DNA of 64,000 nt from Aliiruegeria lutimaris (GTDB lineage: Bacteria > Pseudomonadota > Alphaproteobacteria > Rhodobacterales > Rhodobacteraceae). Positions 1,898-33,750 of the stretch are shown here, piece by piece. The notes under the pieces are model-generated. The model ran no database searches. It was given only the letters and a program-made list of their open reading frames with translations, and was not told the DNA's origin. The stretch covers positions 1-64,000 of the forward strand of contig NZ_FNEK01000027.1 of NCBI RefSeq assembly GCF_900099935.1, read 5' to 3'. Position numbers and translations under genes: made by a program. Positions within the stretch are counted from its first letter, which is position 1. Each line of letters begins with the position of its first letter.

Positions 1898-3502
1898 CTA
1901 AGGGGTCACCTTCCCGAGCAGGATATCCGCCGCATTGGCAGCGATCATCATCGTCGGCGCATTGGTATTGCCAGCCGGAATGCGGGGCATGACCGAGGCG
2001 TCGATCACCCGCACCCCCTCAACCCCACGCAGCCGCAGGCTCGGATCCACCACGGAATGCGCGTCCGCGCCCATGCGGCAAGTGCCGACGGGGTGATAGA
2101 TCGTCTCCGCATGCGCACGGATATGGGCCGCGATCTCCGGCTCCGCTTCCAGCCGCCGCGACGGCGTGACCCGCCCGCGACGATGTGCGGAAAGCGCCGG
2201 GTTCTCCATCAATGTCTGCGCGATGCGGAAGGCGTCGATCATGGTCTCCATGTCGGCGGGATGGCTGAGATAGGCCGGGTCGATCCGCGGCACGGCCATG
2301 GGCGAGGGGCTATTCAGCCCGATTTGGCCGCGGCTCTCCGGCAGAAGGTCACAGACATGCAGCGTGTAGCCATGGCCATATTTAAGCCTGCGCCCATGAT
2401 CGAGCAGATAGGCCGGCAGGAAGTGGAATTGCAGGTTCGGCCGTTCTCGCTCCGGGTGCGAACGGGCAAAACCACCGGCCTCGGCGACGTTGCTCGTCAG
2501 CATGCCTGAACGGTGGCGCAGGTAGGCCAACGCCTCGACGATCCCGCGCGGCAGCAGCGACGCGGCCAGCCCGATCGGCATGCGGGAATTGGCCGAGTGC
2601 ATCAGCGTGACATCGAGATGGTCCTGCCGGTTGCGCCCAAGCTCGGGCAGGTCGTGCAAAACCTCAACGCCACTCTGCTGCAATTCCAAGCCCGGCCCGA
2701 TCCCGGACAGCATCAGGAGCTGTGGGGAGTTCACGGCCCCCGCGCAGAGCAGGATCTCCCCGCCCGGCCGGAGAACCAGCTCCCGGTCCCCATCGGCGTC
2801 GCGCAGGCGGATGCCACGCGCCCGCCGCCCGGAGAAATCCACCCGCGTTACATGGGCATTGGAGAGGATGTCGAGATTTGCGCGCTCGCGGGCCGGTTCG
2901 AGATAGGCGCGGGCTACGCTACAGCGTTTCCCCTTGCGTTGGGTCACCTGGTAAAGGCCCAGCCCTTCCTGCACCGCGCCATTGAAATCGTCGTTCGGGA
3001 GCAGTCCGATATGCCGTCCGGAGTCGGTAAACGCCCGGCTGACCGTGTTGGGCGAGGGCAGGTCGCTGACGGTGAGTGGACCGTCCGCGCCATGCTCGCC
3101 GGAGGCGCCGAGCCGCTCGTTGGCCTCGGCCGAGATGAAGAGCTCGCGCGCCCGTTCCCAACCCCAGAGCGCAGTGCCCGTGGCCTTTTCCCAGCCGTGG
3201 TAATCCGCCCGGTGTCCGCGACTATAGATCATCGCGTTCACCGAACTGGACCCGCCCGGCGTTCGCCCGCGCGGCCAGTAGAGCGGCCGGCCGTTCAGTT
3301 CCGGTTGCGGCTCGGTCTCAAGGTTCCAGTTGATGCCGCGCATATGGGCAAGCACGGCCAGTCCGAGCGGAATGTGGATGAAGGGTGAACAGTCGGGCGG
3401 TCCGGCCTCGATCAGGGCGATGCGGCGCGTGCCGCCCTCGCTCAGCCGGTTGGCCAGAACGCATCCCGCAGACCCGGCGCCGACAATTATATGGTCGTAC
3501 AC
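1898..3502 (-). CDS. GMC family oxidoreductase (choline/alcohol dehydrogenase-like)
   Basis: A 534-residue FAD-dependent alcohol-oxidising enzyme. It starts VYDHIIVGAGSAGCVLANRL, the Rossmann dinucleotide-binding motif GxGxxG, followed by the GMC signature region YWPRGRTPGGSSSVNAMIY near residue 80 and the second signature GAVNSPQLLMLSGIGP near 255. The C-terminus holds HPVGTCRMG and the closing NTNAPTMMIAANAADILL. The start is the GTG at 3502, because homology begins exactly there and AGGA lies six bases upstream; the frame is open further upstream but has no family similarity. The substrate cannot be told; no betaine aldehyde dehydrogenase or transporter is adjacent. Confidence 0.88.
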   Translation of the reverse strand: MYDHIIVGAGSAGCVLANRLSEGGTRRIALIEAGPPDCSPFIHIPLGLAVLAHMRGINWNLETEPQPELNGRPLYWPRGRTPGGSSSVNAMIYSRGHRADYHGWEKATGTALWGWERARELFISAEANERLGASGEHGADGPLTVSDLPSPNTVSRAFTDSGRHIGLLPNDDFNGAVQEGLGLYQVTQRKGKRCSVARAYLEPARERANLDILSNAHVTRVDFSGRRARGIRLRDADGDRELVLRPGGEILLCAGAVNSPQLLMLSGIGPGLELQQSGVEVLHDLPELGRNRQDHLDVTLMHSANSRMPIGLAASLLPRGIVEALAYLRHRSGMLTSNVAEAGGFARSHPERERPNLQFHFLPAYLLDHGRRLKYGHGYTLHVCDLLPESRGQIGLNSPSPMAVPRIDPAYLSHPADMETMIDAFRIAQTLMENPALSAHRRGRVTPSRRLEAEPEIAAHIRAHAETIYHPVGTCRMGADAHSVVDPSLRLRGVEGVRVIDASVMPRIPAGNTNAPTMMIAANAADILLGKVTP

Positions 3503-3701
3503 GTCCCTTCCTCGCCGACACTTCCGCGACCGGTCGTGCCGGCCGAGGATCGCAGCCCATCGGCGCGAACGATAGCGGTACGTGGAGTCACCGGAGACGG
3601 GGCGTCGTTTACCTCCAAGGGCTAGAATGCGTGAATTTTTTCGACGGAAATCACGCAGTCCCGCGTATGATCGGGTAACAGGAAGCAGCGGGGCGGGCCT
3701 G

Positions 3702-4067
3702 ATGATATCGGCCTTGCGGTATTTCATCTCGAAACAGCCGGTCGTTTTCGGCATCTGCGTGGCGGCCAGCCTGTTCACGCTGTTTTTCGCTGTCCAGTTT
3801 CTCGCCCATTTCATCTGGATGCAGGACCCGGCAAATCGCGACCAGAGCCTCGAAGGATGGATGCGGCCTCGCTACGTGGCAATGTCCTGGCATGTGCCGC
3901 CGGATGTTGTGCGTGAAGCGCTGGAACTCGGGCCGCCGCCCAAAGAGCGGGGCAGGGAACCGCTGACCATGGCCGATATCGCCGTGGCGCAAGGCGTTAG
4001 CCTTGAGCAACTCACGGCGCGGGTGGCGCTTGCGGCCGAAGCGTTCCGGACGAGGCACGACAGATGA
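3702..4067 (+). CDS. Single-pass membrane protein with predicted helix-turn-helix-like tail
   Basis: A 121-residue protein starting MISALRYFISKQPVVFG. One long hydrophobic helix (about residues 15-40) is followed by a cytoplasmic part that includes WHVPPDVVREALELGPP and a second short helical segment, MADIAVAQGVSLEQLTARV, that resembles a DNA-binding or protein-binding helix pair but is not diagnostic. Its stop overlaps the start of the DedA gene (ATGA, 4064-4067), so the pair is translationally coupled and presumably works together at the membrane. Function unknown. Confidence 0.7.
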   Translation: MISALRYFISKQPVVFGICVAASLFTLFFAVQFLAHFIWMQDPANRDQSLEGWMRPRYVAMSWHVPPDVVREALELGPPPKERGREPLTMADIAVAQGVSLEQLTARVALAAEAFRTRHDR

Positions 4068-4702
4068 TCGATACGCTTCTTGCCCTCGTGCCGATTTACG
4101 GGCTGTTCCTGATCGCGGGCGTGGTGGCGGTGTCCTGCCTCGCGGTTCCGCTGCCGTCTTCCATGCTGGTCATGGCATCGGGAGGCTTCGCTGCCGCGGG
4201 CGATCTCGTGTTGTGGCAGGTGATTGTCGTGGCCTTCCTAGGGTTCGTCCTGGGTGACCAGACCGCGTTCGGCATTGCACGCTGGGGTGGACCGAAGCTG
4301 CTCGACAGGCTCAAGGAGCGTTCTGGAACAAGGGCGGCGATCGCACGGGCGGAGGCGCTGGTGGATCGTTGGGGCGCGGCGGCTGTCCTGTTGAGCCGTA
4401 CCCTGGTCAGCCCGCTGGGACCATGGACGAGTTATATCGGCGGGGCTGCCGGGCTGGGATGGTTGCCCTTCACGCTCGCGGCGATCTTCGGAGCGGCGCT
4501 TTGGGCGAGTGCTTATGCGAGCCTGGGCTACGTATTCGCAGACCAGATTGCGAATATCGCCTCGATGATCCTGAACGGTGCGGGGTTCATCCTCGCTGCA
4601 ATGGTCGCGTTCGGTTCCGGCTGGTGGCTCCGTCGGAATTGGAAAGCCATGCGCGCGGAGTTGCGCATGGCTCAAACCGAAAAATCAGCCGCCGAGGAAT
4701 AG
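4064..4702 (+). CDS. DedA family (SNARE-associated-like) membrane protein
   Basis: A 212-residue polytopic protein. The family pattern is clear: an N-terminal helix pair, a conserved region GDQTAFGIARWGGPKLLDRL (about residues 64-83), the basic-glycine segment LLSRTLVSPLGPWTSYIGGAAGLGW near 110-135, and two terminal helices ending in a basic tail. DedA proteins act in envelope integrity; some are undecaprenyl-phosphate or phospholipid scramblases. It is coupled to the preceding single-pass membrane protein by an ATGA overlap. The gene converges on mtnP with a 15-base gap and no visible terminator. Confidence 0.85.
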   Translation: MIDTLLALVPIYGLFLIAGVVAVSCLAVPLPSSMLVMASGGFAAAGDLVLWQVIVVAFLGFVLGDQTAFGIARWGGPKLLDRLKERSGTRAAIARAEALVDRWGAAAVLLSRTLVSPLGPWTSYIGGAAGLGWLPFTLAAIFGAALWASAYASLGYVFADQIANIASMILNGAGFILAAMVAFGSGWWLRRNWKAMRAELRMAQTEKSAAEE

Positions 4703-29125: not shown

Positions 29126-29149
29126 AAAGAAACCCGATGTCTCTCGGGG
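29126..29149 (-). terminator. Terminator downstream of the first DUF1127 gene
   Basis: On the minus strand CCCGA-gagaca-TCGGG (29149-29134) is followed by TTTCTTTT. The stem is short but the T-rich tail suits a Rho-independent terminator about 30 bases past the stop codon. Confidence 0.55.
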
Positions 29150-29179: not shown

Positions 29180-29401
29180 TTACGCAGCCATCGCGGCGGC
29201 TTGCCTTGCGATGTCACGCACCATCAGGCTGCTCAGCCCGATATCGGCCAGTTCCTTGTCATTCATCGCGCTCAACTCGTTGAACGTGCGGCGATAGGCT
29301 TCGCGGCGGATGCGAACGATTCTGTAGGCTTCGACCATTGCCGAAAACCAGGCTGGGGTGAAGCCACCAGCAACACGGGGCGTTTCGGACACATATGCCA
29401 T
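29180..29401 (-). CDS. DUF1127 small protein, copy 1
   Basis: A 73-residue protein whose C-terminal 45 residues are the DUF1127 (YjiS-like) domain: YRRTFNELSAMNDKELADIGLSSLMVRDIARQAA, a helix pair with the NDKELADIGL turn. The start at 29401 is supported by AAGGAG. Unlike the other three copies it is not followed by cuckoo hairpins and lacks the shared upstream motif; it may be read from the transcript of copy 2. In Rhodobacter sphaeroides the DUF1127 protein CcaF1 binds RNA and aids maturation of the sRNAs encoded next to it. Confidence 0.85.
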   Translation of the reverse strand: MAYVSETPRVAGGFTPAWFSAMVEAYRIVRIRREAYRRTFNELSAMNDKELADIGLSSLMVRDIARQAAAMAA

Positions 29402-29523
29402 TTCAGGCTCCTTGGGGAATAGTCGGCAACTTGCCGATCGGGTGTCAGGAGCGCTGCATTTCGAGCTTCGCGCTCCGAGGGGAGGATTCACGGGAATGTC
29501 CCGTTGTCGTCTCGTCTTTTCAC

Positions 29524-29594
29524 CGGCGGCACGAGGGAGGAGATACGTGCCGCCGCCTGACCGGATCTGCCCAGGGAGGAGGAGGGGCCATCCG
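29524..29594 (-). ncRNA. Cuckoo/CcsR-like sRNA downstream of DUF1127 copy 2
   Basis: Two hairpins with anti-Shine-Dalgarno loops on the minus strand, starting 19 bases after the DUF1127 stop. The first (29594-29562) pairs CGGAT with ATCCG, then GCCC with GGGC across a small internal loop, exposing CTCCTCCTCCCT. The second (29555-29524) is a 10-bp stem GGCGGCACG/CGTGCCGCC with loop TATCTCCTCCCT. No T-run follows, so the transcript may continue into copy 1. Confidence 0.75.
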
Positions 29595-29612
29595 ATTTCG
29601 GTTCACGCCAGA

Positions 29613-29816
29613 TCAGGCGCCGTAGGCGGCCTCGCGAGCGAGGCTCTTGATCATGGAGCGGCTCAGGCCCAGGTCGGCCAGCGCACGGTCCGAGAGGCTG
29701 GACAGTTCACAGTAGGTCTGGCGATAGATCTTGCGCTTCTGCAGGTTCACGCGAAGGGCTTCGATCGGGGCAGAGAACCAGCTGGTGGTGCTGTTGGCGG
29801 TATAGGTCGTTTCCAT
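29613..29816 (-). CDS. DUF1127 small protein, copy 2
   Basis: A 67-residue protein: an N-terminal METTYTANSTTSWFSAPIEA segment then the domain YRQTYCELSSLSDRALADLGLSRSMIKSLAREAA. The ATG at 29816 has AAAGGA upstream; an in-frame ATG further 5' has none. A cuckoo-like RNA follows immediately. Basic (RKIYRQ) and helical, fitting an RNA-binding role as shown for CcaF1. Confidence 0.85.
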   Translation of the reverse strand: METTYTANSTTSWFSAPIEALRVNLQKRKIYRQTYCELSSLSDRALADLGLSRSMIKSLAREAAYGA

Positions 29817-29870
29817 TTTCAATCCTTTACTCAGTGCCGCTATCGGCATTTGTCTCATCGCGCTGTTCTA

Positions 29871-29959
29871 ATTGTTAGCGCTATCTTCACTGACTAAGAT
29901 ACGTCGAATTGCTGCGGTTTAAACGCTTGTTTGGGCAATGCTACCATGCAGCATTTGCA
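29871..29959 (-). promoter_or_regulatory. Shared two-part upstream region of DUF1127 copy 2
   Basis: The plus strand reads ATTGTTAGCGCT (29871-29882) and, starting 58 bases past its end, GCTACCATGCAGCATTTGCA (29940-29959). Both parts recur before copies 3 and 4 with almost the same spacing. The first part lies about 55 bases upstream of the start codon. Function is unassigned; it could be an operator pair or an alternative-sigma promoter. Confidence 0.6.
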
Positions 29960-30384: not shown

Positions 30385-30473
30385 ATTGTTAGCGCTCTCT
30401 TGAGCCTCAATTTAGTGAAATGGCGGATTTGGACAATCCGAAGAATGGTCAAAGCCGCTATGCAGTTTTTGCC
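30385..30473 (-). promoter_or_regulatory. Shared two-part upstream region of DUF1127 copy 3
   Basis: ATTGTTAGCGCT (30385-30396) is identical to the motif before copy 2, and GCCGCTATGCAGTTTTTGCC (30454-30473) begins 58 bases past its end, the same distance as at copy 2. The region also lies just beyond the terminator of the tandem cuckoo array. A third partial motif, TGTTAGCG, is at 30485. Confidence 0.6.
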
Positions 30474-30551: not shown

Positions 30552-30598
30552 AATAAAAAAAATGGCGGCGACACCAGGGAGGAGGAGGTGTCGCCGCC
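30552..30598 (-). terminator. Terminator of the tandem cuckoo array
   Basis: The last hairpin of the array, a perfect 12-bp stem (30598-30564), is followed on the minus strand by ATTTTTTTTATTTT. It is the only T-run in the four-RNA array, so the array is read as one precursor with its DUF1127 gene. Confidence 0.85.
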
Positions 30599-30636
30599 GG
30601 AATGCAGAAAACCCAGGGAGGAGGACGGGTTTTCTG
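30564..30636 (-). ncRNA. Cuckoo/CcsR-like sRNA 4 of tandem array
   Basis: Hairpin 1 pairs CAGAAAACCC with GGGTTTTCTG (30636-30605) perfectly over a 12-base loop containing CCTCCTCCCT. Hairpin 2 is GGCGGCGACACC with GGTGTCGCCGCC (30598-30564) over TCCTCCTCCCT. It is the best-paired unit of the array and ends at the shared terminator. Confidence 0.88.
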
Positions 30637-30688
30637 TAACCATGTGCCGCGCTTTCGCGCGTGCCGGACGAACCGGCTGGAATTAGGT

Positions 30689-30759
30689 GCGGCGACACCA
30701 GGGAGGAGGAAGGTGTCGCCGCGGAACCGAAAGACCCAGGGAGGAGGACGGATCTTCGG
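30689..30759 (-). ncRNA. Cuckoo/CcsR-like sRNA 3 of tandem array
   Basis: Hairpin 1 (30759-30727) pairs CCGAA-GA-CC with GG-TC-TTCGG with single-base bulges, loop with CCTCCTCCCT. Hairpin 2 is a perfect 11-bp stem GCGGCGACACC/GGTGTCGCCGC (30722-30689), loop TTCCTCCTCCCT. It is separated from unit 4 by a spacer with small hairpins (GCGC-TTTC-GCGC; GCCGG-ACGAA-CCGGC) that could be processing signals. Confidence 0.88.
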
Positions 30760-30814
30760 AACTCTATGTCGCTGCGCCTCTCAGGCGCGTCGGGCTCGCC
30801 CGACCGTGTAAGTT

Positions 30815-30886
30815 GCGGTGACACCAGGGAGGAGGAGGGTGCCGCCGCCGAAACCATGACCCAGGGAGGAGGAGGGGCTTCCGGTT
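30815..30886 (-). ncRNA. Cuckoo/CcsR-like sRNA 2 of tandem array (degenerate stems)
   Basis: The loops are intact (CTCCTCCTCCCT in both) but the stems are weaker: the second hairpin (30848-30815) has one mismatch and one G-U pair in 11 positions, and the first has only AACC/GGTT and CCC/GGG segments around an internal loop. The loop is thus better conserved than the stem. Confidence 0.8.
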
Positions 30887-30918
30887 CCGTATCTCAGCCC
30901 TTTCGGGCGGTATCTTGT

Positions 30919-30989
30919 GGCGGCAACACCAGGGAGGAGGAGGGTGTTGCCGCCGTATCAGAAAACTCAGGGAGGAGGACGGGTTTCTG
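30919..30989 (-). ncRNA. Cuckoo/CcsR-like sRNA 1 of tandem array
   Basis: The first unit after DUF1127 copy 4, beginning 13 bases past its stop. Hairpin 1 (30989-30959) pairs CAGAAA with TTTCTG and continues with a bulge; hairpin 2 is a perfect 12-bp stem GGCGGCAACACC/GGTGTTGCCGCC (30954-30919) over CTCCTCCTCCCT. The arrangement of one DUF1127 gene followed by four such RNAs matches the ccaF1-ccsR1-4 locus known in Rhodobacter sphaeroides. Confidence 0.9.
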
Positions 30990-31002
30990 AAACTCTATCT
31001 CG

Positions 31003-31221
31003 TTACGCCGCTTTCGCAGCCTGCCATGCCAGCGGCCGGATCATGTCCCGGCTGAGGCCCAGCTTGTTCAGTTCCGCATCGGTCAGCGCCGACAGTTCAC
31101 TCCGGGTTTGGCGGAACTTCCGCGCTTTCCCGAGCCATCCGGTCGCACCGCGCAGTGCGGTGGAGAAACGATTGCCAGATGTGCGGCTGCGCATGACTTG
31201 TGCATTCCTTGCCGTTGCCAT
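31003..31221 (-). CDS. DUF1127 small protein, copy 4 (CcaF1-like host gene of the four-sRNA array)
   Basis: A 72-residue protein: basic N-terminus MATARNAQVMRSRTSGNRFS, then FRQTRSELSALTDAELNKLGLSRDMIRPLAWQAA. The strongly basic first half sets it apart from the other copies and suits RNA binding. CAAGGAGCGAG precedes the ATG. By position it corresponds to CcaF1 (RSP_6037), an RNA-binding DUF1127 protein that affects CcsR maturation; orthology is inferred from synteny, not alignment. Confidence 0.88.
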   Translation of the reverse strand: MATARNAQVMRSRTSGNRFSTALRGATGWLGKARKFRQTRSELSALTDAELNKLGLSRDMIRPLAWQAAKAA

Positions 31222-31284
31222 CTACTCGCTCCTTGCGGGTCCAGCCGCTTGTCTCACCATCCTACTCGAAGCAGGTTTCGTTCG

Positions 31285-31394
31285 TGTTAGCGCCTGACTT
31301 GCGTTCCGTTAGCGCCCTCGTTGAACTTCAAAATAAGGATGGAAACCGTTTGCGCAATCACCGGCAGCCTCAATGCCGCTATGCAGCATTTGCA
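31285..31394 (-). promoter_or_regulatory. Shared two-part upstream region of DUF1127 copy 4
   Basis: Two forms of the motif are present, TGTTAGCGC (31285-31293) and CGTTAGCGC (31307-31315). GCCGCTATGCAGCATTTGCA (31375-31394) begins about 59 bases past the second, the same geometry as before copies 2 and 3. The remaining ~120 bases up to the mrp start hold no gene. Confidence 0.6.
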
Positions 31395-31518: not shown

Positions 31519-32610
31519 ATGGCTCTAACCCGTGAAGAAGTTGTCAAGGCGCTGAAGGGCGTATCTCTGGAAGATGGTGGCGATTTGGTCTCACGCGACC
31601 TCGTGCGTGCGCTCTCTGTCGATTCGAGTGGGAGGGTCAGCTTCGTCATCGAGGCCGAATCCGACCAAATGGCGCGGGCGATGGAGCCGGTTCGGCAGGC
31701 CGCCGAGGGTGTCGTGGCCAAGCTCAACGACGTGACATCGGTTTCCGCAGTGCTGACAGCACATTCTGCTCCCCCGGCTGGTGCAGCGCCGGCTGGTTCG
31801 CCGCCGAACCTGAAGGTGGGCCGGCATCCCACGGCGCAGCCCGCCGGACCGCAGGACGTTCCGGGCATCGCGGGTATTCTTCTTGTCGGTTCTGGCAAGG
31901 GGGGCGTCGGCAAGTCCACGGTTTCGGCGAACCTCGCGGTGGCGCTTGCGCGGCAGGGGCGGCGTGTCGGGCTTCTAGATGCGGATATATATGGTCCGTC
32001 TCAGCCGCGGATGATGGGGGCAAGCGGCCGGCCGGCCTCGCCGGATGGCAAAACCATCGTGCCACTGAAGGCGCATGGCGTCACGCTCATGTCCATGGGC
32101 TCGCTTCTAAAGGAGGCCGAGGCAGTGATCTGGCGTGGCCCGATGCTCATGGGCGCGCTTCAGCAGATGATGGGGGATGTCGCCTGGGGCGAGCTTGATG
32201 TGCTGATCATCGACCTGCCGCCGGGAACCGGCGACGTCCAGCTCACCCTCGGCCAGAAATACCGGACCAGCGGCGCGATCGTCGTCTCGACGCCCCAGGA
32301 TGTCGCCCTGCTCGATGCGCGCCGCGCGATCGACATGTTCACCAAGCTCAAGGTGCCGATCCTCGGTCTGATCGAGAACATGTCTACTTATATATGTCCT
32401 AGCTGCGGACATGAGGCGCATCTGTTCGGTCATGGTGGCGTGGCTGCCGAGGCGCAGGCGATGGATGTGCCCTTCCTCGGGGCACTTCCGCTGGAGCTGG
32501 AAACCCGGATCGCGGGCGATTCCGGGGCGCCGGTCGCCTTGGGCGAGGGCCCTGCGGCCGAAGCCTATGCCGCTCTGGCGGCGCGACTCGTCGGCGGCGG
32601 CATGGCCTGA
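31519..32610 (+). CDS. mrp: Mrp/ApbC family iron-sulfur cluster carrier ATPase
   Basis: A 363-residue P-loop ATPase that carries and transfers Fe-S clusters. The N-terminal ~80 residues are the MIP18/DUF59-like domain; then VGSGKGGVGKSTVSANLAVAL (deviant Walker A with signature Lys), LLDADIYGPSQPRMMG, DLPPGTGDVQLTLGQ, and STYICPSCGHEAHLFGHGG, whose CxxC binds the cluster. GGAC/AGGTCGG region precedes the ATG. The gene lies between the DUF1127 block and the dcw cluster and ends in its own terminator. Confidence 0.93.
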   Translation: MALTREEVVKALKGVSLEDGGDLVSRDLVRALSVDSSGRVSFVIEAESDQMARAMEPVRQAAEGVVAKLNDVTSVSAVLTAHSAPPAGAAPAGSPPNLKVGRHPTAQPAGPQDVPGIAGILLVGSGKGGVGKSTVSANLAVALARQGRRVGLLDADIYGPSQPRMMGASGRPASPDGKTIVPLKAHGVTLMSMGSLLKEAEAVIWRGPMLMGALQQMMGDVAWGELDVLIIDLPPGTGDVQLTLGQKYRTSGAIVVSTPQDVALLDARRAIDMFTKLKVPILGLIENMSTYICPSCGHEAHLFGHGGVAAEAQAMDVPFLGALPLELETRIAGDSGAPVALGEGPAAEAYAALAARLVGGGMA

Positions 32611-33249: not shown

Positions 33250-33750
33250 GTGGCGCGTGTATTCAGAGGTCAGGGCCGTAACAAGGTCGACGCGAAGGGC
33301 AGGGTTTCGGTACCCGCCCCGTTTCGTCGTGTTCTGGAAGCCTGTGACCCTGAGTGGAAAGATGGCCTGCAGCCGAACCTCGTCGTGCATTACGGCACCT
33401 CCCGCAAGAAATTCCTCGAAGTCTACACGATGGAGGCCGCGGCCGAAGTCGATGCCAAGATCAGCGCCCTCACGCGCGGCTCCAAGGAGCGGCGCATGAT
33501 GGAAGCCTATTTCAACGCGCAGTCGCACCCGGCGACCGTGGATGACAACGGGCGCCTGCTGTTGCCGCAGAACATTCGCGACATGATCGGGCTGGAAGGG
33601 GAAGCGCTTTTCGTCGCCTCCCACGACACGTTCCATATCTGGAACCCGGAGACCTATGATCAGGAAGTCGCCCCGCAGACCGAAGCGATGCTGGACGAAC
33701 TGCCCGACGATGTCGATCCGCTGACGCTCCTGGAGGGAGGAGGTCTCTGA
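33250..33750 (+). CDS. mraZ: Transcriptional regulator MraZ
   Basis: A 166-residue AbrB-fold DNA-binding protein and first gene of the dcw cluster. Two SpoVT-AbrB-like halves: RGQGRNKVDAKGRVSVPAPFR near residue 6 and SHPATVDDNGRLLLPQNIRDM near 93, each with the DxKGR / DxNGR pattern. GTG start with AAGGAG nine bases upstream. It is expected to bind the GTGGG boxes and repress the cluster. The last codons include GGAGGGAGGAGG, the ribosome-binding site of rsmH. Confidence 0.95.
   Translation: MARVFRGQGRNKVDAKGRVSVPAPFRRVLEACDPEWKDGLQPNLVVHYGTSRKKFLEVYTMEAAAEVDAKISALTRGSKERRMMEAYFNAQSHPATVDDNGRLLLPQNIRDMIGLEGEALFVASHDTFHIWNPETYDQEVAPQTEAMLDELPDDVDPLTLLEGGGL

Follow-up and report, generated by a model that had tools for sequence, protein, structure and literature searches.

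What does a tandem series of hairpins directly behind a small DUF1127 gene do, and what switches it on? This question is raised by a locus in Aliiruegeria lutimaris (Rhodobacteraceae), in a stretch of 64,000 nucleotides that was analysed as a whole and is called the window here. The array proved to be real and under constraint, and nothing out of the ordinary within its family. What had not been expected was a predicted LsrB-type promoter switch, which is well supported by the sequence. We consider it probable that this is a CcsR/cuckoo locus driven by LsrB from an RpoH-compatible core promoter, and that its anti-Shine-Dalgarno (anti-SD) RNAs would be cut from the 3' UTR of the DUF1127 gene.

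The hairpin array and the extended cluster

Eleven copies of the motif CCTCCTCCCT were found across the window, all of them on the minus strand and eight of them inside the array at 30564-30990, compared with a mean of 0.02 and a maximum of 1 per window in 100 shuffles. When the units were folded one by one, all eight array hairpins formed with CCTCCTCCCT in or at the loop, and in hairpin 1 three loop bases were paired within the loop. When the whole 471-base stretch was folded, long-range pairing replaced the local hairpins in some units. The stems had 8-12 pairs with at most one mismatch in seven of the eight hairpins; hairpin 3, in unit 2, had only four clean pairs beside the loop and an imperfect outer stem. 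An earlier note on this DNA had described eight minus-strand hairpins in four pairs exposing the loop motif, a drifted stem with an intact loop in unit 2, and a T-run after only the last hairpin (30598-30564) of the four-unit array. The motif count and the folding agreed with the first of these descriptions, and the other two were also confirmed.

The array and its layout were correctly recognised in that note, and the extent of the locus was underestimated, as two hairpin units, three DUF1127 genes and the LysR-type box had been missed (Table 1). The window cluster comprises in total four DUF1127 genes and six two-hairpin units and, with the terminator-like sites taken as borders, three transcription units. 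No T-run was found after unit 6 (29522-29596), and no LysR-type box was found in the 400 bases upstream of DUF1127 gene 4. L019 (Aliiruegeria sabulilitoris) and L103 (genome G007, of the same genus) likewise had four DUF1127 genes, with eight hairpins in the first array. Among the other 44 loci compared (see below), only L042 had two DUF1127 genes beside hairpins in the stretch fetched.

Table 1. Positions of the cluster features in the window, in order of the predicted direction of transcription
Feature	Position	Strand	Remarks
LysR (LsrB/VtlR-type) box TGCATAGCGGCATTG, transcription unit 1	31371-31385	(-)	outside the interval of the earlier note
Inferred core promoter, transcription unit 1	31330-31357	(-)	-35 TTGCGC 31357-31352, -10 TATTTT 31335-31330
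DUF1127 gene 1, CcaF1-like, 72 aa	31003-31221	(-)	Pfam PF06568 34.6 bits
Unit 1, two hairpins	30990-30958, 30954-30919	(-)	Rfam CcsR1 51.4 bits
Unit 2, drifted hairpin and hairpin	30889-30849, 30848-30815	(-)	Rfam CcsR1 38.6 bits
Unit 3, two hairpins	30760-30727, 30722-30689	(-)	Rfam CcsR1 58.4 bits
Unit 4, two hairpins	30638-30603, 30598-30564	(-)	Rfam CcsR1 62.4 bits, E 1.6e-13
T-run, intrinsic-terminator-like end of transcription unit 1	30552-30563	(-)	after the last hairpin
LysR-type box TGCATAGCGGCTTTG, transcription unit 2	30450-30464	(-)	
DUF1127 gene 2, 74 aa	30104-30328	(-)	PF06568 47.2 bits
Unit 5, two hairpins	30095-30059 (reduced loop ATCTCCTCCCT), 30057-30014	(-)	then T-run; CcsR1 42.4 bits
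LysR-type box TGCATGGTAGCATTG, transcription unit 3	29936-29950	(-)	
DUF1127 gene 3, 81 aa as listed	29613-29858	(-)	PF06568 45.6 bits
Unit 6, two hairpins	29596-29560, 29557-29522 (reduced loop TATCTCCTCCCT)	(-)	CcsR1 38.4 bits
DUF1127 gene 4, 103 aa as listed, likely start 29401	29180-29491	(-)	PF06568 35.6 bits
Terminator-like hairpin 3' of gene 4	29133-29148	(-)	

Constraint on the loop

The eight-hairpin arrays of the three Aliiruegeria loci were aligned in order to compare the loops with their surroundings. In the 10-base loops, 0 of 80 bases had changed between the window and L019, and 1 of 80 between the window and L103. The corresponding values were 4 of 208 (L019) and 33 of 208 (L103) for the 13-base flanks, and 19 of 204 (L019) and 80 of 206 (L103) for the linkers. 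A loop that varied freely across related genomes had been named in the earlier note as evidence against its reading; the loops were nearly frozen in both relatives, and the reading withstood this comparison. Small hairpins in the linkers differed in their letters and remained foldable, as in the stems GCCGG/CCGGC of the window and GCCGA/TCGGC of L103 (judged by eye in the alignment). In the 47 loci, a stem score of at least 6 was obtained at 333 of 370 CTCCTCCC sites, compared with 33 of 370 when the flanks were shuffled. Loop identity over these 47 loci is given by construction, because the sites were picked by the motif, which is not the case for the stem figures. The loop is the most constrained part of the array.

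Relation to Rfam families

The covariance search suggested in the earlier note gave a divided result. The CcsR1 model (RF02791) matched the four main-array units over its full length (E 1.6e-13, 2.4e-12, 2.8e-10 and 1.6e-6), and its gathering score of 65.3 was reached by none of the six window units, which scored 38.4-62.4 bits. An Rfam scan of the window at the gathering threshold gave no match, and CcsR1 and ar14 were recovered at a lax threshold, with scores of 34.7-46.5 bits for ar14 (RF02344), below its cut-off of 58.8. The Rfam family 6C also gave matches at the lax threshold, with E 0.24 and 0.97 and scores short of its cut-off; these overlapped and were discounted as chance. Among 49 related loci, the CcsR1 gathering score was passed by L093 (106.2), L092 (94.1), L030 (87.6) and L020 (67.2), and that of ar14 by L031, L037, L044, L045, L047, L090 and L099.

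Under Rfam's rule the window RNAs are not members of CcsR1; to judge from their structure, loop, gene and order, they are of the CcsR kind. The window units have the two hairpins with CCUCCUCCC loops that characterise CcsR1. A short DUF1127 gene beside the RNAs, the feature of CIN1/cuckoo loci, is also present, with PF06568 found in all four genes. Short DUF1127 genes with CcsR-like RNAs have been published as the CIN1 locus (PMC10253847), and the cuckoo motif has been described as hairpins in which the loop is conserved and the helices are not (PMC4504443).

Distribution of the array and its genomic neighbourhood

Two motifs 15-45 bases apart were found in 185 of 296 family genomes, and the backwards control pattern in 1 of 296. 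The 47 loci compared were one from each of 46 of these 185 genomes, among those listed and including the window's genome and G007, plus L019. One locus was taken per genome, although in some genomes, such as G103, G085 and G034, further motif pairs are present on other contigs. L029, which comes from the same genome as L101, was excluded from the counts. The fetched loci had 2 to 26 motifs each, with a median of 8. The largest array was that of L101 (G146), with 26 loop motifs at 3382-4544; it resembles a tandem duplication with a unit of about 140 bases.

In 44 of the 47 loci a DUF1127 ORF ended at most about 75 bases before the first motif, and for L027, L094 and L098 no DUF1127 gene was found before the array. 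An mrp-like gene was divergent and upstream of the array in 36 of the 47 loci, the window (31519-32610) included, which indicates that most of the loci are the same ancestral locus. The genomic position of the array is old, and the shared promoter region could also serve mrp. In a class-wide sample the motif pair was present in 17 of 289 genomes, four of them from the family. Of the loci outside the family, L179-L181 (all from family f8) had weak matches to ar14, two of the three also with weak matches to CcsR1; among the 13 other outside loci, only L182, also from f8, matched CcsR1, marginally (27.3 bits).

A LysR-type box at a fixed distance from the predicted core promoter

Near-identical strings (TGCATAGCGGCATTG, TGCATAGCGGCTTTG and TGCATGGTAGCATTG) precede the three transcription units of the window. 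For transcription unit 1, ATGCAAATGC precedes TGCATAGCGGCATTG and the two together form TGCA-N6-GCAT. Of the 54 DUF1127 genes at the arrays, 51 were preceded by the box, TGCATRGCRGCATTG (at most two mismatches to TGCATNNNNGCATTG, within 400 bases of the gene), compared with 101 of 1080 letter shuffles, and the three misses were the fourth DUF1127 genes of the window, L019 and L103. TGCA-N6-GCAT was found within 230 bases for 43 of the 54 genes, compared with 27 of 10800 shuffles. As the mrp-like gene stands beside 36 of the 47 loci, most of these promoters are orthologous to one another, and comparison with shuffles makes them look more independent than they are. The sequences upstream and downstream of the arrays were also compared, leaving out the expanded loci (the window, L019, L103 and L042). 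The box was present upstream in 40 of 40 single-gene loci and in 5 of 42 equal stretches downstream; for TGCA-N6-GCAT these values were 37 of 40 and 0 of 42. In the window's genome, five of the six DUF1127 genes that have no array lacked the box, and the sixth had a match with two mismatches.

Alignment of the promoters on the box gave a consensus of TTGTGC at +28 and TATNTT at +50 bases from the box start, followed by CAAC at the expected start (52 of 54 promoters, the two with a box score of 8 being omitted). Transcription of transcription unit 1 would begin at about 31322. Relative to a start at CAAC, TGCA-N6-GCAT would span about -71 to -58. NfeR1 of S. meliloti has the LsrB motif TGCA-N6-GCAT in the stretch from -72 to -57/-60 and is activated by LsrB (PMC10746234). 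The VtlR-binding motif of Brucella is CAATGCAGCCATGCA (PMC12595884), the reverse complement of which is TGCATGGCTGCATTG. A VtlR/LsrB motif is found at the position of an activator, as counted from the predicted transcription start.

Some arrays without a DUF1127 gene also carried the box. In L094 (2519-3347) it was present before both arrays with no DUF1127 gene between, and in G050 (L225, 1500-1793) it preceded an anti-SD pair with no room for a gene between. This indicates that the box follows the RNA, and not only the protein gene or mrp. No good box was found in L027, where a motif pair is present and the best match was 11 of 15 positions. In the class-wide search, neither a DUF1127 gene nor an anti-SD pair followed any of the 27 exact box sites examined outside the family.

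A further string, GCGCTAAC, was considered as a promoter element and rejected, as its position is 3' of the predicted start and only 12 of the 54 genes have it. It recurs in 5' leaders (in the window at 31250-31320 and for genes 2 and 3), and only two of the 12 genes are outside the expanded loci. On the minus strand of L053 (1237-1425), an exact box, located at 133964 of G000 C82, and a following GCGCTAAC were observed before a 62-codon frame for a short protein, which may be another target of the LysR regulator. No paper joining CcsR with a LysR regulator was found in a literature search that covered the founding work (Billenkamp 2015, Grutzner 2021, and Reinkensmeier and Giegerich 2015) through later papers only.

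An LsrB orthologue in the genome of the window

In Rhizobiales, lsrB and trxB form one operon (PMC11975290). The trxB neighbourhood of the window's genome was found to hold no lsrB; the neighbours resemble, by eye, an Lrp-type regulator and a sulfate-activation gene. The orthologue was therefore sought with a profile, built from 14 LysR proteins of other alphaproteobacterial families whose genes adjoin trxB. One clear match was obtained in the window's genome, at G000 C151:34413-35285, with 384 bits compared with 179 for the next LysR protein. A LysR tree was also tried as proof of orthology and was set aside, because the branches of the paralogues were very long and attached among both LsrB groups. 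As the tree was insufficient by itself, reciprocal searches and identities were used instead. In 17 genomes of the class, 14 of which had been chosen for a trxB-linked LysR, the reciprocal search gave a best match of 246-316 bits in 16, and this match was beside trxB in 15 of the 16. The remaining genome (G302) gave 139 bits only; it carries an ar14-like RNA. The DNA-binding domain was 70-86% identical to the trxB-linked LysR set and 32-44% identical to seven paralogues from the genome. The best solved relative was PDB 9HH1 (E 1.2e-73, compared with 2.6e-29 for the next), deposited as the cryo-EM structure of A. tumefaciens LsrB (PMC11975290). By these comparisons, the genome of the window encodes an LsrB orthologue.

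An LsrB match was present in 79 of 80 family genomes (of 86 intended), comprising 45 of 46 with arrays and all 34 counted as array-less, one of which (G050) does hold an array. Co-occurrence consequently does not single LsrB out. The exception is G105 (320 contigs), in which an array and a box are present and LsrB was not matched at 1e-65. On the basis of a few representatives, LsrB has been described as exclusive to Rhizobiales (PMC11975290); the matches in the family speak against this claim and suggest that LsrB is not confined to that order. C144 of A. tumefaciens LsrB is replaced by valine in the orthologue, and, as this residue is not conserved, the signal sensed may differ. C190 of the orthologue is common to 20 of 29 family sequences. 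Sheehan and colleagues have reportedly addressed the conservation of VtlR in Alphaproteobacteria.

Proposed mechanism and alternative explanations

In the mechanism that we propose, a CcsR/cuckoo (CIN1-type) locus would have been expanded in the genus into three adjacent transcription units. The LsrB orthologue of the genome would bind the LysR-type box and help RNA polymerase to start downstream, at a core promoter (TTG...TATNTT) compatible with an RpoH-type sigma factor. The transcript would be translated into the DUF1127 protein, and RNase E would probably cut the long 3' UTR within the linkers to give two-hairpin RNAs; co-transcription and RNase E processing are reported features of the ccaF1-CcsR operon of R. 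sphaeroides. Each loop would present CCUCCUCCCU or a shortened form of it, which would pair with strong Shine-Dalgarno sequences and block translation, and many copies would provide a higher dose. LsrB binding, the choice of sigma factor, cutting by RNase E, target pairing and stress induction are all put forward as proposed steps. Stress induction, and RNA binding by the protein of DUF1127 gene 1, are carried over by analogy from Rhodobacter sphaeroides.

Candidate targets were looked for with the perfect loop complement, AGGGAGGAGG. It was found at 10 sites in the genome outside the cluster, four of which are the Shine-Dalgarno sequences of long frames, including rsmH and an FGGY carbohydrate kinase; the remaining two of these four frames had no Pfam match in the 60 residues searched. 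The site at 33734-33743 is the Shine-Dalgarno sequence of rsmH/mraW (start 33754) and lies at the end of mraZ. As the backwards control had 8 sites in the genome, the evidence for targets is only suggestive.

The same RNAs might have an RpoHI/RpoHII promoter as their sole input, the box being read by another LysR protein, serving mrp or being a relic. The core TTG...TAT fits the pattern of these sigma factors, which has TTG in the -35 and TAT in the -12 element (PMC10673084), and an RpoHI/RpoHII promoter has been reported for RSs0680a in R. sphaeroides (PMC3320616); only this kind of promoter is given for R. sphaeroides in PMC10253847 and PMC3320616. The mrp-like gene on the other side of the box in 36 of the 47 loci is also as expected if the box serves mrp. 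However, a sigma factor alone leaves unexplained the fixed-distance box and the TGCA-N6-GCAT of the upstream regions (40/40 and 37/40), and several boxes do not serve mrp, namely those of genes 2 and 3 of the window, that of gene 2 of L042 and those of nine loci without an mrp match in the stretch. The box and the regulator both match LsrB, and inputs from RpoH and LsrB can coexist. A promoter with RpoH as its only input is thus unlikely, with a small though appreciable chance of being correct, and a joint LsrB and RpoH input is preferred.

The function of the RNAs may also differ from antisense silencing. If the array were an RNA sponge that titrates a protein or Shine-Dalgarno-like RNAs, and not a source of antisense RNAs with specific targets, dose would outweigh sequence context, as the copy number of 2 to 26 motifs per locus would suggest. 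Sequence cannot separate a sponge from antisense RNAs, but target silencing has been published for a relative, NfeR1 (PMC10746234), and we give the sponge only a slight probability. Alternatively, the hairpins may act mainly in cis, by protecting the DUF1127 mRNA at its 3' end or by binding the DUF1127 protein for autoregulation. This would fit the 44 of 47 loci in which the array is directly behind the gene, and an effect of CcaF1 on the maturation of CcsR has been reported in R. sphaeroides (PMC10253847). Protection needs stems only, yet the loop is the part under the strongest constraint; moreover, arrays without a DUF1127 gene exist, and NfeR1, whose loops carry this motif too, acts in trans to silence its target mRNAs (PMC10746234). 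A role mainly in cis is accordingly very improbable, and antisense RNAs acting in trans are retained as the preferred reading.

Implications for CcsR and LsrB

On a wider scale, we lean towards the view that control of anti-SD cuckoo RNAs by LsrB is ancestral in Alphaproteobacteria, and that the box has been kept in Rhizobiales (NfeR1) and Rhodobacteraceae (CcsR), with or without DUF1127. If this is true, the stress RNAs of Rhodobacter have a second regulator besides RpoHI/RpoHII, and the current view that LsrB is restricted to Rhizobiales would be corrected. The promoter result, if borne out, would place CcsR of Rhodobacter and NfeR1 of rhizobia under one LysR regulator, and would offer those working on Rhodobacter a second input to CcsR control that can be tested directly. 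The array extends a known kind, with the loop strictly kept while copy number and stems drift.

Comparison with known systems

The earlier note had likened the locus to ccaF1-CcsR1-4 of R. sphaeroides, and this likeness was upheld: in both, tandem units of two hairpins with CCUCCUCCC loops stand behind a DUF1127 gene and end in a single terminator, with four such anti-SD units in the published operon (PMC10253847) as in the first array of the window. Unlike ccaF1-CcsR1-4, the window has in addition two DUF1127-RNA units and a fourth DUF1127 gene. The LysR-type box, with one mismatch, was also present in G046, the genome with the best CcsR1 score (106.2 bits), and no mention of the box was found in the literature covered. 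With NfeR1/ar14 of Rhizobiales the window units share several hairpins, each with an unpaired anti-Shine-Dalgarno motif, whereas NfeR1 stands alone as an RNA of three hairpins under a sigma-70 promoter of its own and the window units are part of the 3' UTR of a protein gene. TGCA-N6-GCAT of the window is located about where the LsrB-activated NfeR1 of Sinorhizobium has it. The LsrB/VtlR regulon of Rhizobiales (DUF1127 genes, AbcR and VrsA), for which DUF1127 genes are among the targets reported (PMC12595884), has a box, TGCATGGCTGCATTG, that is nearly identical to TGCATRGCRGCATTG; unlike in these systems, lsrB is located away from trxB in the window's genome.
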